Shown here: positions 15,258 through 41,375 of the stretch, piece after piece
How the letters are laid out: every line of letters starts with the position of its first letter
Numbering within the stretch: position 1 is the first letter of the stretch
Assembly (NCBI GenBank): GCA_029821755.1
Contig: JALGSV010000051.1
Location: forward strand, 1 to 49,637
Source: Candidatus Zipacnadum vermilionense
Lineage (GTDB): Bacteria > Armatimonadota > Zipacnadia > Zipacnadales > Zipacnadaceae
Length of the DNA: 49,637 bases
Direction of reading: 5' to 3'
Translations under genes and position numbers: made by a program
Notes under the pieces: model-generated
The model's input: the letters and a program-made list of their open reading frames with translations, nothing else
Told to the model about the DNA's origin: nothing
Databases searched by the model: none

Positions 15258-17192
15258 ATGGACACTGCCGTGCCGAAGCGAAGGCTGGTCTTCAACCTCA
15301 TGGCGATCAAGGAGCGATTTGATCCCGGCGAGTTCAGCGCGTTCGCCGCGATGGCGGCGGAATATGGGGCGACCCACGTCAATGTGGGGGTTCTGCCGTT
15401 TGCCTATAGCTGGTTCCTGCCCGACCTGCACGATCCCTATCCCAGTTGGGCGAACTGGTCCATGGGACTGTTCCGCGTCTTTACCCCCCCCGCCCTGCAG
15501 GAGTGGATTCCGCCAGAGTCCTCTCAGGCGCTGCAGGAGATCTTGCAGGAGAAGATGACCATCCTGCGCGGTCTGGGATTGCGCGCGACGGTGTCCAACG
15601 GCGTGGAGCCCTGTTGGCTCCCCGAGGGCGTGTACCGTGCCCACCCGCACTGGCGTGGCGCCCAATGCGAACTAGGGCGCATCGCGGGCAAGCCCTACTT
15701 CTCCCCCTCCATTGATGAGCCGGAAGTGCTGGAGCTGTACGGTTGGGCCCTGGAGGAGTGCGGTCGGCTCTTCCCGGAGATAGACGACTTCCAGTTCCTC
15801 ACGAATGACTCGTCAGCCGGCATCAGTTGGTCCGCCTTCCTCTACCCGGGGGTGAACGGTCCGGCGGCGTATCGCCAGCGGGGGCCCGGCGAGCGCGTCA
15901 GCGGCTGGCTGCAGACGATGGTGGAGGGCGCGGCCCGCGCGGGGTCGGAAGTACGGTTCAACCTGAACGGTGGGCTCACCGTGGCGGAACGGGAAGCCAT
16001 TCGGGCGAAGCTTACGCCCGGCACCTATCTCAGCGGGGCGGGCAGCGACGGCACGCACTTCCGCAACGCCGGCGCCAATCTGGGCGCCGGGTACTGGACC
16101 CAGGCCTGGCCGGCGGTCGGGATCAACAACATGATCGCCTTTGCCGAGGGGCTCCAGCCAATCTTCGACCCGGAAGCAGACCCACAGGCCTTGAGTGCAG
16201 AGATATCCATGGATGAGTATGGCTTGCCGCTGGCCCGGGTGCTGCTGGACAGTGCGCGAGACAATCCGGGTGTGGGCCTCCTGCACCGTGACCGGGTGCT
16301 CCTGCACGCGGGCGCGAAGCTGGCGGGCGAGACGCAGGCCGAGGCGCTGGTCCGGGTGTGGGAGTCCGTCAACAGTGCCTTGCACGCCGTCGCCCAGATA
16401 CGGGTGCGGGGTGCTTCCGACATTCTCTTCGGAGAAACGGTCTCCCGCTGGCTTATTCGTCCCCTGGTTCCCCGGCCCCTGGAGTTGACCGAGGCGGAGA
16501 AGGCTCACTACGAGCCGTTCCTCTTCAGCGTCGGCACGGACGAACAAAACGCCAACCTGGGCTATCTGTGCGGCAAGCCGGTGCTGCTGGGGGACGGGGT
16601 CGTGTGGATGGCGCGTTGGGCGTGCCAGGAGGCCATCGGTACCCTCCAGGGCGCCTCGCGGTCGTTGCAGAGCATCGTCACCCAGGCCGGCGAGGCCGCG
16701 ACCAGCGAGGTGCAACTCTACCACGCGCGGGTCCAAGCGCTGTGCTGTGTGATTGAGAATGTGAAGCTCACCATCATGTACCAGCACGCGCTGAATATCG
16801 CCGACCTCCCCCGTTTCGGTGCCAACACGATGGATTACGACGACAACATCAACTACGATCAGCGCTGCCTGGAACTACGGAAGATCGCCCGAGCAGACCT
16901 CGACAATACGACCGCACTGATCCAGTTGCTGCGCGCCCATGCGGAGCCGGTGATCGGGGTGGCGGAAACGCCGGAAGGCGAAACCGTCTTCAAGTTCGGT
17001 CCGGACCTGGTCGCGTCCTTGCAGCGCAAGCAAGAGATCATGCTCGACCATTGGCACGACTATGAGCGCATGTACCCGACCAGCAAAGAGTGGGATTTCG
17101 AGCCCGCCAGGATGCGGGGCGGCCGAGGCGACGCTGCAGGCTGCGCGAGCGCGAGTACGGATGCCGCCGTCACCTCAGCAGACGATAGCTAG
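15258..17192 (+). CDS. Unrecognised 644-residue protein, probably a TIM-barrel glycosidase-like enzyme
   Basis: No family can be named with confidence. The first half alternates strands and helices like a barrel: YGATHVNVGVLPFAYSWF, GLRATVSNGVEPCWLP, then IDDFQFLTNDSSAGISW near residues 175-191, and RFNLNGG followed by YLSGAGSDG. Repeated strand-end Asn, Asp and Glu residues with aromatic neighbours recall GH20/GH84/GH67-type barrels. The second half (after about residue 370) is mostly helical, with many conserved-looking Trp, His and Tyr. The last 30 residues are Ala/Ser/Asp-rich and probably disordered. No signal peptide is present. The start has only a weak AAGGA site 14 bases upstream. 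It converges with the UroD-like wreck at 17203. Confidence 0.5.
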   Translation: MDTAVPKRRLVFNLMAIKERFDPGEFSAFAAMAAEYGATHVNVGVLPFAYSWFLPDLHDPYPSWANWSMGLFRVFTPPALQEWIPPESSQALQEILQEKMTILRGLGLRATVSNGVEPCWLPEGVYRAHPHWRGAQCELGRIAGKPYFSPSIDEPEVLELYGWALEECGRLFPEIDDFQFLTNDSSAGISWSAFLYPGVNGPAAYRQRGPGERVSGWLQTMVEGAARAGSEVRFNLNGGLTVAEREAIRAKLTPGTYLSGAGSDGTHFRNAGANLGAGYWTQAWPAVGINNMIAFAEGLQPIFDPEADPQALSAEISMDEYGLPLARVLLDSARDNPGVGLLHRDRVLLHAGAKLAGETQAEALVRVWESVNSALHAVAQIRVRGASDILFGETVSRWLIRPLVPRPLELTEAEKAHYEPFLFSVGTDEQNANLGYLCGKPVLLGDGVVWMARWACQEAIGTLQGASRSLQSIVTQAGEAATSEVQLYHARVQALCCVIENVKLTIMYQHALNIADLPRFGANTMDYDDNINYDQRCLELRKIARADLDNTTALIQLLRAHAEPVIGVAETPEGETVFKFGPDLVASLQRKQEIMLDHWHDYERMYPTSKEWDFEPARMRGGRGDAAGCASASTDAAVTSADDS

Positions 17193-19449: not shown

Positions 19450-19473
19450 GGCGGGCGAGACGCCCGCCGTACC
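19450..19473 (-). repeat. REP-like hairpin upstream of gltX
   Basis: GGCGGGCG, a loop AGA and CGCCCGCC form a perfect 8-bp stem, followed by GTACC. The core GGCGAGACGCC is shared with the array at 39625-39810, but the outer stem bases differ in a paired way. On the minus strand it reads GGTAC before the hairpin. It lies about 12 bases before the gltX start codon region. Confidence 0.65.
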
Positions 19474-36461: not shown

Positions 36462-37883
36462 CTACTCGGTCAGCAGGGGAGTGCAGCCGGGCATGCGGGC
36501 GGCGGTCTTGAGGTACTCAGGGAACTCGCCGCCGGCGTCCTGGAGGAAGATCTCCACCGCACGCTCGACTACCTCCGGGTGCTGCTCGGCTACGTTGGTG
36601 GTTAGGCCGGGGTCGCTCTCCAGGTCGTAGACCAACGGCAGGCCACCCCAGAAGAGCGCGTTGCACCACCACTTGTCGTCGATCATCGTCACATCCGGGC
36701 CCCAGCCGATGGTGACGTGGTCGCGGCCCGGCGCCTCGCCGCGTACCACCGGCAACAGGTCGATTCCCTCCATTCCCTCCGGGCTCCCCTCCCCCATCAG
36801 ACTCAGCAGCGTCGTGACCAGGTCGTGGTTGTAGCAGAGGGCGTCGCAGCGGGTACCACCCGCGACGGGCGAGACGCCGGCTCTCCCCGAGGCAGGCGAG
36901 ACGCCTGCGCTACCGGGAGGGCGGATCATCATGACCAGGTCAGCGACGGCGCGGGTGAGGGGATGGCCTTGCTTACCGGTAAGGTTGGAGTCGCCCAGGT
37001 TGTGGCCGTGGTCGGAGATGAGCGCGACTACGGTGTCCTCGGCGCGGCCGGAGTTGTCGAGGGCCGCCAGGAAGTGCCCCAGCCAGCGGTCGACCATGGT
37101 CACCTCCCCGGCGTAGTTGGCCTGCATTCGCTGGAGCTCCCGGTCGGTGTAGCCGTCGGCAGGGCCGTAGGTGGACCAGATGACGTCTACGGGGATTTCC
37201 TCGGGGTCGTAGAGCTTGCGGTAATAGGCGGGCGGGTCCCAGGGCTCGTGGGGGTCGAAGGAATCGAGCACTAGGAAGAAGCTGTCCGCGTCCTGGTTAC
37301 GCCAGAGCCAGTCGGCGCCGCCGCGGAAGACCTGGGCAGGGAAGTAATCCTCCTCGCTGCGGCGCTCGGCGACGTTCATCAGGTACTGGCGGTACATGGC
37401 CCGGCGGTGGGGCTCGTCGTTGTAGGACGGGATGAAGCGCGCCAGTTCCTCGTCGGAGATGGGCGGCCCGGAGCGGTAGTGGTCGGCCTCCTGCCCCCGG
37501 ACCCAGAGCCACTCATCGAAGCCGCGGCCGTAGTTCTTGCTGGGCTTGAACTGGTGGTAGGTGTCGGTGACAAAGCCGGTACGGTAGCCGCGCTCGTGGA
37601 GGATCTCCGCGACCGTGTCTTGGTCCTCCGGAATAGGCCCCCAGCCGGGCGCGCCCACGAAGTCGCCCTTCTGCATACAGTGGTTGTGGAAGGGGTAGGT
37701 GCGCTGGCCGGTGTGCAAGGCGCGACGGACAGGTAGCGTGGGCAGCGACTCGGGATAGGCCCGAGTGAAGACGACCGACTGGGCGGCCAGCGCGTCCAGG
37801 TGCGGCGTGTGGATCCATTCGTTGCCATAGCAGCCGCAATGGTCCTGCCGCCAGGAGTCGACGACGATGAGAACGCAGTTCAT
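36462..37883 (-). CDS. Sulfatase/alkaline-phosphatase-fold protein lacking the formylglycine Cys/Ser
   Basis: 473 residues. The fold is that of the arylsulfatase superfamily: CVLIVVDSWRQDHCGCYGN at the N-terminus, HTPHLDALAAQSVVF, LVLDSFDPHEPWDPPAYY and ALISDHGHNLGDSN with metal-binding Asp-His. In true sulfatases C/S-x-P-x-R carries the Cys or Ser that becomes formylglycine. Here residues 49-53 are T-L-P-V-R (SLPTLPVRRALHTGQ), so a Thr stands in that place. A related phosphatase or phosphonate-hydrolase activity, or loss of activity, is possible. About residues 322-345 (GSAGVSPASGRAGVSPVAGG) are encoded by REP repeats inserted before CDALCYNHDLVTTLLSL. No signal peptide is seen. Confidence 0.75.
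   Translation of the reverse strand: MNCVLIVVDSWRQDHCGCYGNEWIHTPHLDALAAQSVVFTRAYPESLPTLPVRRALHTGQRTYPFHNHCMQKGDFVGAPGWGPIPEDQDTVAEILHERGYRTGFVTDTYHQFKPSKNYGRGFDEWLWVRGQEADHYRSGPPISDEELARFIPSYNDEPHRRAMYRQYLMNVAERRSEEDYFPAQVFRGGADWLWRNQDADSFFLVLDSFDPHEPWDPPAYYRKLYDPEEIPVDVIWSTYGPADGYTDRELQRMQANYAGEVTMVDRWLGHFLAALDNSGRAEDTVVALISDHGHNLGDSNLTGKQGHPLTRAVADLVMMIRPPGSAGVSPASGRAGVSPVAGGTRCDALCYNHDLVTTLLSLMGEGSPEGMEGIDLLPVVRGEAPGRDHVTIGWGPDVTMIDDKWWCNALFWGGLPLVYDLESDPGLTTNVAEQHPEVVERAVEIFLQDAGGEFPEYLKTAARMPGCTPLLTE
36866..36914 (-). repeat. Two REP hairpins inside the sulfatase-like gene
   Basis: GGCAGGCGAGACGCCTGCGC followed by TACC (36891-36914) is an exact copy of the array unit at 39625-39810. A diverged copy, GGGCGAGACGCCGGCTCTCC, precedes it at 36867-36886. 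Both lie in one reading frame of the host gene and contain no stop codon in it. On the coding strand the full copy begins GGTAG. Confidence 0.8.
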
Positions 37884-37912: not shown

Positions 37913-37998
37913 GTGATAAATGGACTGCGAGGCCCCGGCGGCTATCGTCGGACTCTCAGGCCCCATTTATCACTTATCGTTTATCACTTATCGTTTAT
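37913..37998. repeat. Inverted and tandem TTATC repeats between sulfatase-like and CDF genes
   Basis: GTGATAAATGG (37913-37923) is mirrored by CCATTTATCAC (37963-37973). Directly after, CACTTATCGTTTAT occurs twice in tandem (37971-37984 and 37985-37998), ending on the stop codon of the CDF gene. Sequence of the same type, as a long hairpin, is at 43394-43498. It is AT-rich and unlike its surroundings. Confidence 0.6.
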
Positions 37999-38984
37999 CA
38001 GTGTGCGTGTTCGTCTTCCGCCTGGATGTGCCGCACCGGATAGACCATGGTGTCGACCGAGCAGACCTCGTCGCATTCGGTCTCGATGGTGGTCTGAGAG
38101 AAGCCGAAGCGCTCCAGCAGCAGGTTCTCCACCTCCCGGCGCAGTTTCATGCGTTCGGCCTCGGTGGTGTAGTCGGCCACCACGTGCACACTGACGGCGC
38201 GAATGTTGGAGCAGATCGACCAAGCGTGCAGGTGATGTACCGAGGTGACCTCGGGGATCTCGTCGAGGGCCAGGGCGATCTCCTCCAGAGTAAGGCCGAA
38301 GGGGACGCCCTCCATCAAGATGTGCAGCGACTCGCGCCCCACGCGGACCGCGCTGCCCAGGATGAGTACGGCGATGAGGCCAGAGAGGACGGGGTCGGCC
38401 AGGTAGCGCCAGGACCAGGGGGTGAGCAGCATGATCAGGGCGGCAAGGATGACGGCCACGGAGGCGAGCAGATCGCTGAGCACGTGCAGATAGGCGCTGC
38501 GCAGGTTCAGGTCGCCGTGGGAGTGGCCGCGCAGGCGCAGGACGACCACCAGGTTGACCGCCAGACCGACGACCGCAATGATCAGCATGACGCCGCTCTT
38601 GACCTCCGGCGGCTCGAACAGGCGGCTATAGGCCTCCCAGAGGATCAGGCCGGCGATGCCGAAGAGAGCGAGAGCGTTGAGCAGGGCGGCGAGGATTTCG
38701 CTGCGATGCAGACCGTAGGTATGGCGAACGGTGGGGGGCCGCAGGGCCAGGCGCAGGGCGACGTAGGCCAGGACGAGCGCAGCGACGTCACCGAAGACAT
38801 GGCCGGCGTCGGAGAGCAGGGCCAGGGAGTTGGTCCACCAGCCGCCCAGGGCCTCGACGACCATGAGGGCGGCGGTGAGGTAAGCCGCCCATATGAGCTG
38901 GGCGCCTTTGGCCCGGTCGCCGGCCGAGACGGGCGCCGCGGCGTGGGCGCGGTGGTCGTGATCGTGGTCGTGGTTGTGGGCCAT
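37998..38984 (-). CDS. Cation diffusion facilitator (CzcD/ZitB-type) metal exporter
   Basis: 328 residues. It uses the proton gradient to export divalent metals such as zinc across the inner membrane. The His-rich start NHDHDHDHRAH is a typical metal-binding tail. Six membrane segments follow, with SDAGHVFGDVAAL in the second (His62, Asp66) and AYLHVLSDLLASV in the fifth, the His-xxx-Asp pairs that bind zinc. The C-terminal cytoplasmic domain (GLTLEEIALALDEIPEVTSV, then HHLHAW) is the usual ferredoxin-like dimer domain. The last residues QAEDEHAH may bind metal too. Two REP hairpins lie between this gene's start and the RAYT stop. Confidence 0.9.
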   Translation of the reverse strand: MAHNHDHDHDHRAHAAAPVSAGDRAKGAQLIWAAYLTAALMVVEALGGWWTNSLALLSDAGHVFGDVAALVLAYVALRLALRPPTVRHTYGLHRSEILAALLNALALFGIAGLILWEAYSRLFEPPEVKSGVMLIIAVVGLAVNLVVVLRLRGHSHGDLNLRSAYLHVLSDLLASVAVILAALIMLLTPWSWRYLADPVLSGLIAVLILGSAVRVGRESLHILMEGVPFGLTLEEIALALDEIPEVTSVHHLHAWSICSNIRAVSVHVVADYTTEAERMKLRREVENLLLERFGFSQTTIETECDEVCSVDTMVYPVRHIQAEDEHAH

Positions 38985-38994
38985 GATTGGCAGC

Positions 38995-39037
38995 GCAGGC
39001 GTCTCGCCTGCCCCGGTAACGCAGGCGTCTCGCCTGC
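38995..39037 (+). repeat. Two REP hairpins between the CDF gene and the RAYT
   Basis: GCAGGCGTCTCGCCTGC occurs at 38995-39011 and 39021-39037. The second is preceded by GGTAAC and the first by GGCAGC, variants of the GGTAGC seen in the main array. Their orientation is opposite to the array beyond the RAYT, so the transposase gene lies between inverted REPs. Confidence 0.8.
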
Positions 39038-39050
39038 TCCCAGCATTGAC

Positions 39051-39608
39051 CTACATCGGTACGTGCATCCCTCGGTCCCAGAAGTAAGGGTACTCCAAGA
39101 AGTCGCGGCAGAGCCCGGCCTTCACCGGGTTGTTCGCCGTGTACCGCAGTTTCTCCATGAATTCGTCGTTGTCACGCATGATGCGATCCCAGTGCTCGGG
39201 CAGCCACACGTGTCCCCCACCGCCCCGCAGCTTGGCGATCAGATGCGCCGTGAAGGACTTGACACTGTGCAGCATCTCGCTCAAGGGGTAGTACCGCGTC
39301 GTTGGGAGAGCATCCCCCGGGAGAGGAAGCGGGCGCACCAGCAGATGAACGTGGTCGGGCATTACCACCAGCGCCTCCACCGTCCACTTCTTCTCGTGCC
39401 ACAAGAGGCAAGCGTCCATGACGAACTGCCGTTCCTCGGGCGACAGCGGAGTCCCCTTCACTCGTAGAGTCACAAAGTAGGTGCGTCCAGCCTGCTCCCA
39501 GTGAGGAAGCCGGCGCCTCAACTGGCGAAGTGCCAGCGTGGCGGGGTCGAAGCCCGTGTCCATTTTTCCGCTCGCCGGCGGTTTGCCTGAGGAATACCCT
39601 TGCTCCAT
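39051..39608 (-). CDS. REP-associated tyrosine transposase (RAYT, Y1/HUH family)
   Basis: 185 residues, typical for RAYTs, starting six bases after GGAG. These are single-copy domesticated relatives of IS200/IS605 transposases that nick and join REP hairpins as single-stranded DNA. The HUH metal site is VVMPDHVHLLV (His86, His88). The catalytic Tyr is Tyr156 in KLRYTANNPVKAGL. YFVTLRVKGTPLS and WLPEHWDRIMRDNDEFMEKL also match the family. All catalytic residues are present, so it may be active. On both sides lie REP hairpins of one family in opposite orientation, including a seven-copy array 17 bases before the start codon, making this a complete transposase-plus-REP unit. Confidence 0.9.
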   Translation of the reverse strand: MEQGYSSGKPPASGKMDTGFDPATLALRQLRRRLPHWEQAGRTYFVTLRVKGTPLSPEERQFVMDACLLWHEKKWTVEALVVMPDHVHLLVRPLPLPGDALPTTRYYPLSEMLHSVKSFTAHLIAKLRGGGGHVWLPEHWDRIMRDNDEFMEKLRYTANNPVKAGLCRDFLEYPYFWDRGMHVPM

Positions 39609-39624
39609 TGCTGTCTCCTAGTGC

Positions 39625-39810
39625 ACAGGCGAGACGCCTGCGCTACCGCGAGGCAGGCGAGACGCCTGCGCTACCGCGAGGCAGGCGAGACGCCTGCGCC
39701 GCGAGGCAGGCGAGACGCCTGCGCTACCGCGAGGCAGGCGAGACGCCTGCGCTACCGCGAGGCAGGCGAGACGCCTGCGCTACCGAGGCAGGCGAGACGC
39801 CTGCGCTACC
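39625..39810 (-). repeat. Seven-copy tandem REP array
   Basis: Seven head-to-tail units of about 28 bp, each GGCAGGCGAGACGCCTGCGC followed by TACCGCGA or a shortened form. The third unit lacks a few bases after CTGCG, the sixth ends TACCGA, and the first begins ACAGGC. Each can fold GCAGGCG-AGA-CGCCTGC. Read on the minus strand the unit is GGTAGC plus hairpin, which is the GTAG-plus-palindrome layout that RAYT proteins recognise. Units abut with no spacers, so this is not a CRISPR. The last unit overlaps the 3' end of the enolase-superfamily gene and gives its stop codon. Confidence 0.9.
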
Positions 39811-41165
39811 AGATCCATCTGATAGCCCAGCCCGGTCCCTTGCAGGCTGGCGGTGGAGGCCAGGCCGTTGTGCAGGCGGAAGAGGCCGGCGTGGATTCGC
39901 TGCTCGCCGGGAGGCGTGGCGGCGGGGAAGAATTGGCGGCTGTTGGCCTCCAGGCCCATCATCGTGTACAACCGCGCCCCCATCCCGACAGAGTGGATCA
40001 ACGCCAGGCTAGGGTTGGTCAGGTCCTGCAGTGCGTAGGGGATGCCCTCTTCCCTCGCCTTGGCGGCCAGGACCAGGTCCATGGAGTGGCCCTTACAGGT
40101 CTTGAGCGCCAGGCCCGACCAGCCCAGTTCCAGGCCGAGTTGCAGCGACTCCAACCCGGCCAGGCTCTCGTCGAGGATCACCGGCTTGAGCTGCGACAGC
40201 TTGTGCATGTCGTGGCGGTGAGTCTCCAAGTCCCGGTCGGTCGGCTGCTCCAGGTACAGCAGGCGGTCAAAGCACTCGGGCGAGGCTTCCCGCAGGCGGG
40301 TACACATCTCCACCAGGTACTCCGGGGAGTCGCACTGCTCGTTGGTGTCGGCGGTCAGGTGCAACTCGGTCTGGCCGCGCTTGGCCAACTCCTCCTGGCC
40401 GATGCGGAACACGGCCAGAGTGCGCTCCAAGTCCCACTCCAGGTCGTTGCCGCGCAGCTTGACCTTGAGGCAGAAGACGCCGTCGCGGGCGATCCACTCG
40501 TCGAGGCTGACCGGCTCGCCGTCCTGCGGGTCGGTGTCGTCCTTCTCGGACTGAGTGAGCTTGTCCAGCCCGCCGACCAAGTGAAAGATGGGGACCTCCG
40601 GTAGGTAGGAGTCGCGGAGGTACTGGGAGACGTACTTGCCCTGGTAGCGCGGCCCCAGGTAGCGGGAGAGGTCGCCCATGAACTCGGGGCCGTAGCCCTG
40701 GTAGGAGTCGATACCATTGACGTTGCCGAAGGCGTCGTGGATAGCGGCGTCAATCGGCGAGGCGCACACTAACGCGCCCAGCAGGGGCTGGCGCAGGCGT
40801 TCGTCCATCAGCACGCAAGCCTCGTGGTTGAGGTTGTCCAACGCGGGTTCGAGGGCCCAGAAAAGGTCGATCGGGTGAGTGTAGTGGGGGTAAGCGGCGA
40901 CCTCGTCGGCGTAGCGCTGCGCCACGCGCTTCATGCAGGCTTCCTTGCTGGCATGGTCCAACTCCGGGGTAGGCCAGGACCAGAAGTCGGCGAGGAAGAT
41001 GCCGCCCCAGCCATCGGCGACCTGCCCGGCGCGGTTCTCCACCGTAGCGCGGATGCGGCAGAAGGTGACCTGGTCCATCACCACCGCGCCGAACTTCAGC
41101 GGCGTGCGAGCCGCGCAGGGCTCGAAATGGATCTCGACTTGCTTGACCTTGAGGTCGGAGTTCAT
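39780..41165 (-). CDS. Enolase-superfamily enzyme (mandelate racemase/muconate lactonizing type)
   Basis: 461 residues from the ATG at 41165; the frame is open further up but without protein-like sequence. The barrel carries the expected residues in order: CLKVKLRG (Lys-x-Lys, acid/base), LTADTNEQC (first metal Asp), LYLEQPTDRD (second metal Glu), VILDESLAG (third metal Asp or Glu) and LALKTCKGHS (second Lys). That Lys/Lys arrangement suits the MLE or dipeptide-epimerase subgroups more than sugar acid dehydratases. It is about 90 residues longer than most. The native end is probably near GYQMDL; the final VAQASRLPR and the stop come from a REP unit. Substrate is unknown. An MFS permease gene lies upstream on the same strand. 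Confidence 0.8.
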   Translation of the reverse strand: MNSDLKVKQVEIHFEPCAARTPLKFGAVVMDQVTFCRIRATVENRAGQVADGWGGIFLADFWSWPTPELDHASKEACMKRVAQRYADEVAAYPHYTHPIDLFWALEPALDNLNHEACVLMDERLRQPLLGALVCASPIDAAIHDAFGNVNGIDSYQGYGPEFMGDLSRYLGPRYQGKYVSQYLRDSYLPEVPIFHLVGGLDKLTQSEKDDTDPQDGEPVSLDEWIARDGVFCLKVKLRGNDLEWDLERTLAVFRIGQEELAKRGQTELHLTADTNEQCDSPEYLVEMCTRLREASPECFDRLLYLEQPTDRDLETHRHDMHKLSQLKPVILDESLAGLESLQLGLELGWSGLALKTCKGHSMDLVLAAKAREEGIPYALQDLTNPSLALIHSVGMGARLYTMMGLEANSRQFFPAATPPGEQRIHAGLFRLHNGLASTASLQGTGLGYQMDLVAQASRLPR

Positions 41166-41330
41166 GATTGAGGGCCTTTCACTTGGGCGGCGGAAGGAGG
41201 TAGGGGTTCGCCGTCGGGAGGAAGGGGACCTTTCGCCACCTGCAGACAGGACCCATGCGGCCCCCGGCTGTCGGAGACAATCCCGGAGAGGGCGCTCCTT
41301 CCGCTCCGGCGGGGGCCGGATGGGACCCGT

Positions 41331-41353
41331 CTCGCGTGCAAACGACGCACGCG
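41331..41353 (-). terminator. Hairpin after the MFS permease gene
   Basis: TCGCGTGC (41331-41338) and GCACGCGA (41346-41353) form a perfect 8-bp stem with a seven-base loop, 22 bases past the stop of the permease gene. No T-run follows. The rest of the 210-bp gap to the enolase-type gene has a direct repeat (ACCCATGCGGCCCC at 41250 and 41357) and no gene. Confidence 0.4.
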
Positions 41354-41375
41354 AGCCACCCATGCGGCCCCTCCA

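Follow-up and report, generated by a model that had tools for sequence, protein, structure and literature searches.

How REPs and the RAYT genes associated with them spread is an open question, and it is raised anew by a locus of Candidatus Zipacnadia (Armatimonadota) in which a RAYT gene lies between hairpin repeats. RAYTs are usually held to be domesticated and to reside near housekeeping genes (PMC8266576). Did this gene and its repeats travel as one unit, or is it a settled gene that does not move? In the window (the whole stretch of 49,637 nucleotides that was analysed), the locus is very probably a REPtron, i.e. a RAYT with its own GTAG-tagged REP present in inverted copies on both sides, and mobility of the unit forms part of that explanation. 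Such units are already known, and this would be one from a bacterial phylum that has been little studied. The following features were located.

36865-36913, minus strand: a REP unit (GTAG intact, CCTCG tail) and a second, diverged one, in frame within a sulfatase ORF
37998-38984, minus strand: the downstream neighbour, a cation-efflux (CzcD-like) gene
38989-39040, plus strand: two REP units 3' of the RAYT, inverted relative to the array, with degenerate feet (GGCAG and GGTAA)
39051-39608, minus strand: the RAYT gene (TnpAREP-type Y1 HUH transposase, 185 aa), assigned by family model, catalytic motifs and fold
39625-39810, minus strand (the gene's own): seven head-to-tail REP units 5' of the RAYT
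39679-39704, within the array: a unit without GTA
39780-41363, minus strand: the upstream neighbour, an enolase-superfamily (MR_MLE-like) gene

The sequence-only reading had described a 185-residue Y1 transposase with both histidine ligands and Tyr156, and this description was borne out. The DHVH motif occupies residues 85-88 (HUH histidines H86 and H88), and the catalytic Y156, N160 and P161 complete the HUH, tyrosine and N-P motifs. The protein scored 82.5 bits with the NCBIfam model REP_Tyr_transpos (NF047646, cut-off 80) and 19.2 with the IS200 model NF033573 (cut-off 55), which leaves it outside the IS200/IS605 family by that measure. It was also under the cut-off of Pfam Y1_Tnp (PF01797) and was missed by a search with that model; the protein as query and NF047646 were used in its place. 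TnpArep (4er8) was the top relative in a sequence search of the PDB, and this entry, a TnpAREP-REP complex, also ranked first in Foldseek (E 8.5e-10, TMt 0.68) with the AF2 model of the window protein (pLDDT 86.8). The catalytic residues were unchanged across 29 aligned RAYTs of the class, in which K117, W135, N160 and P161 are further invariant columns. In the window protein W135 is followed by L136, at a position of the GTAG-recognition region where Q or E is expected and where most other RAYTs of the class have WQ. The W-Q/E pair is a subclass trait without a catalytic role.

Each array unit has the form GGTAG-C-GCAGGCG-TCT-CGCCTGC followed by a CCTCGCG spacer, which gives a perfect 7-bp stem, a 3-nt TCT loop and a 1-nt spacer to the GTAG. 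This geometry lies within that of GTAG REPs (a stem of 6-13 bp closed by a short loop, with 0-2 nt between stem and foot). Counted from the RAYT side, the units are spaced at 28, 28, 25, 28, 28 and 26 bp. That they consist of GTAG and a palindrome, as had been claimed, was true of six of the seven but not of the unit without GTA; in the two 3' units the foot reads GCAG and GTAA, and GTAG is thus intact in six of the nine units at the RAYT. The gene does lie, as had been read, between two hairpins on its 3' side and seven oppositely oriented tandem hairpins on its 5' side, and family model, fold and inverted REPs agree with the proposed RAYT-plus-REP unit. The span given for that unit (38995-39810) needs correction at its left edge, where the outer hairpin begins at 38989. 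A RAYT with its REPs inverted on both flanks is the REPtron layout; a REPIN, in which a closely spaced inverted doublet is the replicating unit, does not describe the head-to-tail array. Across the whole window the 17-nt core gave 22 matches with up to three mismatches, against 0.72 expected, and no shuffle reached 22. Related palindromes were noted at 16323-16339 and 19451-19467, the latter (GCGGGCGTCTCGCCCGC) being preceded by GGTAC, not GTAG.

REP sequence extends into coding sequence in the window. The final nine codons and the stop of the MR_MLE-like gene (VAQASRLPR, then stop) are REP sequence of the first array units, and relatives of this gene end in GLGYQMEKVLRGQ or similar, then stop. 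The cassette appears to have been inserted between the MR_MLE-like gene and czcD, overwriting the end of the former. At the other end of the same ORF (41168-41363), the first ~60 residues are unmatched in most relatives, and the real start codon probably lies around residue 66. The units inside the sulfatase ORF encode GSAGVSPASGRAGVSPV and fall outside the span originally proposed; the sulfatase match to PDB chains crosses the REP-coded loop, where the alignment is poor and the edges of the insert cannot be fixed.

A RAYT match was present in 216 of 291 Armatimonadota genomes at E 1e-3 (123 above the cut-off), and the nearest named relatives of the window RAYT were in Candidatus Zipacnadia MAGs, two of which (G033 and G032) belong to the family of the window. 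GTRG hairpins numbered 124 in 65.7 kb lying at most 600 bp from a RAYT vs 8 in 82.6 kb farther out, counts in which three loci were entered twice and overlapping hits were included. When loci were deduplicated and overlaps removed, upstream units lay mostly on the strand of the gene (43 to 7) and downstream ones mostly on the opposite strand (26 to 13). For the link between transposase and repeat the sequence-only reading had relied on gammaproteobacteria; within this lineage itself, REP type follows RAYT relatedness over 28 RAYT loci (correlation of REP distance with RAYT distance, Mantel Spearman rho 0.49, 0/5000 permutations as high). The array had also been thought unusual for the lineage, but others occur in relatives, with ten upstream head-to-tail units in G030 and eight downstream units in G029. 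In L032/L050 and L048, the RAYT gene was itself seen to contain REP sequence, in frame and located between its HUH and tyrosine motifs.

The suggested tracking of repeats with the RAYT was found across the class but was not significant within the family. Of the 46 genomes of the class, 21 contained the pattern GTAGNNCAGGCGNNNCGCCTG and none contained the reversed control pattern. All seven class genomes with a close RAYT had at least five repeats vs 6 of the 39 without (Fisher p = 3e-5), the corresponding family values being 7/7 and 4/8 (p = 0.08). Abundance of the repeats in a relative without a RAYT, which had been named as a counter-case, was encountered in part: the same-genus genome G044 has 29 copies, nearly all of them GTAGGA/GTAGGT variants, and its assembly lacks a close RAYT but has other RAYTs. 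With at most one mismatch, the window REP occurs 15 times in the genome, including 10 times in the window, whereas GTAG REPs often exceed 100 per genome; a broader pattern gave 39-54 matches in G037 and G032, mostly of the GTAGGA type. This low copy number, unlike that of classical REP families, counts against a REPtron, as do the loss of GTAG in both 3' units, the leucine after W135 and the G044 repeats without a close RAYT. The genome of the window harbours a second close RAYT (L117, G000:C22:1995-2720; 58% identical), whose distinct REP is found 15 times in that genome, 6 times elsewhere in the genus and never in the other 43 genomes. Another RAYT (L003, G000:C22:123-608) has long GTGG palindromes with 14-bp stems on either side.

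In a second same-genus genome, G045, czcD directly follows the MR_MLE-like gene; the RAYT is missing there, other REP-like palindromes lie between the two genes, and the close RAYT of that genome sits at another location. Like the anatomy of the window locus and the correspondence of REP with RAYT across loci, this RAYT-free arrangement of adjacent genes is read directly from the DNA. Given the palindromes at the G045 site, RAYT loss there is possible: the cassette may have been gained in the window or lost in G045. Neither target duplications nor junctions could be resolved. The genome of the window also has an in-frame inverted REP pair in its mutS (L006, G000:C61:14157-14206); of ten aligned relatives, eight are empty at this loop, and the two from the same genus (G044 and G045) have different inserts.

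RAYTs were also found nested in genes for defence enzymes. Four are in Type ISP restriction enzymes (L110 in G039, L111 in G033, L112 in G040 and L113 in G031), all in frame, without a stop of their own and at three distinct positions; L110 and L113 have a loop in common and carry different RAYT types. Close relatives of the window RAYT inside Type ISP genes were 53-64% identical to it, and the RAYTs of L110, L111 and L112 are among the closest to it. Others are in HmaB-type DNA-adenine methylases, also of defence (L115 in G025, L126 in G074, L127 in G277 and L222 in G079), in frame at three positions, one of which is shared by L126 and L222; L222 was identified from its reading frame and an HmaB match split around the RAYT, without a separate family scan. 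Nine RAYT-bearing ORFs of at least 600 aa were followed up, and eight of these (in eight genomes) had Type ISP or HmaB hosts. In the ninth, L114 (G002:C51), the RAYT reads through stop-free into a GH4-like gene, a host named by eye. Among the Type_ISP_C matches listed, the gaps that read as RAYT-sized were those of G039, G031 and G033, all in frame. The nested RAYTs were mostly found by screening for long open frames, from which a preference for in-frame insertion cannot be deduced; an argument from the chance of each frame was dropped for this reason and because the RAYT's own frame is the likeliest to be stop-free.

Alignment of the host genes revealed several states of the same sites. One Type ISP loop is empty in L168, has REPs in L167 and has the RAYT in L110 and L113; a second has REPs in L164 and the RAYT in L111; and an HmaB loop has a REP-like pair in L115 at the position of the RAYT of L126. 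REP hairpins were present on both flanks of the RAYT in L110-L113, whereas with the same criteria none was found around it in L115 and L126, and L127 had a single one near its RAYT, on the 5' side. In the L113 ORF, four further in-frame GTGG palindromes were noted at bases 647-791, in the N-terminal part of the Type ISP gene. A host segment gave a dN/dS of 0.16 (88 codons), which is no proof of host function after insertion, since the pair compared had diverged with RAYTs at different sites. When the C-terminal part of a Type ISP protein was modelled together with its RAYT, the RAYT domain was predicted with pLDDT ~95 and the host part poorly (pTM 0.39). These genes might indicate, as a tentative but plausible reading, that the Armatimonadota RAYT gene is mobile as a translatable repeat-RAYT-repeat cassette, which becomes an extra domain in Type ISP and HmaB proteins without stopping the host protein and possibly spreads with these transferable genes. 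The fusions may be active, with the transposase serving the defence enzyme. A literature search on RAYTs with Armatimonadota, restriction-modification or fusions, with subscription papers mostly outside its reach, returned nothing relevant; as far as the literature accessible to it goes, in-frame transposases within restriction or defence methylases are apparently undescribed.

At three kinds of site (Type ISP loops, HmaB and MR_MLE-czcD), REPs alone in one genome are thus matched by a RAYT in another. These states favour movement of the whole unit, which is a reasonable inference from the genomes compared, and since related genomes show either REPs alone or REP-RAYT-REP at corresponding sites, such mobility is directly testable. 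By analogy with its family and fold, the RAYT would bind the REP as a single-stranded hairpin (predicted substrate for the window protein: GTAGCGCAGGCGTCTCGCCTGC), with the GTAG foot as guide, and Tyr156, aided by a metal that H86 and H88 bind, would cut and rejoin the REP, as in E. coli TnpAREP. REPs, and sometimes presumably the REP-RAYT-REP cassette, would spread in this manner into protein loops and into sites between genes. The array units recur at a nearly identical period of 28 bp, which points to tandem duplication of one upstream unit and not to seven insertions.

The occurrence of REPs at the corresponding site in another genome, as in the Type ISP loops, HmaB and MR_MLE-czcD, would also fit a cassette that arrived by recombination between pre-existing REPs and not by RAYT-catalysed transposition. 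This is rather unlikely: REPs of ~23 bp are short for homologous recombination, and those at the G045 site are of another family than the REPs of the window RAYT. Slightly less likely again is a domesticated RAYT, immobile and vertically inherited at a stable locus, with the REPs as its by-products. It would accord with the TnpAREP genes described near housekeeping genes (PMC8266576), with the flanks that G032 and G037 have in common around their close RAYTs, and with purifying selection on the RAYT (dN/dS 0.05-0.36, only where synonymous sites were unsaturated, a result that also counts in favour of a REPtron), but G045 has its close RAYT elsewhere and none at the window site, and the RAYTs of relatives occupy several loops of unrelated genes. 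That the array has been retained because it regulates the RAYT or its neighbour in cis, or stabilises RNA, is improbable. Its position in what is presumably the 5' leader and its strong folding as RNA (z = -5.8) would fit, although strong folding is expected of any palindromic array and arrays elsewhere are on either side of the gene (downstream in G029). An Rfam search of the window at 36-42 kb gave no matches. The regular ~28 bp repeats recall a CRISPR, or an ordinary tandem repeat with no connection to the RAYT, but this has a negligible chance of being correct, as the spacers are identical and not unique (for which CRISPR was rejected), the palindromes are perfect, inverted copies lie across the gene, and the motif recurs at the RAYTs of relatives.

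The REPtron reading can be set against several known systems. IS200/IS605 transposases share the HUH-Y1 catalytic fold with the window protein, but it falls below both NF033573 and PF01797 cut-offs and tnpB was not seen adjoining its gene. E. coli TnpAREP (PDB 4er8) is its best solved relative in sequence and fold, at 22% identity over the Foldseek alignment, and recognises a REP with a bulged stem, in contrast to the perfect 7-bp stem and 3-nt loop found here. With TnpAY1 subclass 2.4, or Bertels group 4 (PMC6006769), the window RAYT has the Y-x-x-N-N-P tyrosine motif in common, and its close relatives L032/L050 and L048 share the in-frame REPs within the RAYT; it differs in having DHVH and W-L where the subclass has NH[IFV]H and WQ, a comparison at the level of motifs. 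The 2013 survey (PMC3733652) does not name Armatimonadota among the phyla that have GTAG or CGTC repeats. Compared with described REPtrons, in which RAYTs are accompanied by GTAG REPs (Nunvar 2010, PMC2817692; Di Nocera 2013, PMC3733652; Corneloup 2021, PMC8266576), the window repeat is low-copy, but an HUH-Y1 gene with inverted GTAG-tagged palindromes on either side is common to both, and in known REPtrons, too, REPs occur inside genes.
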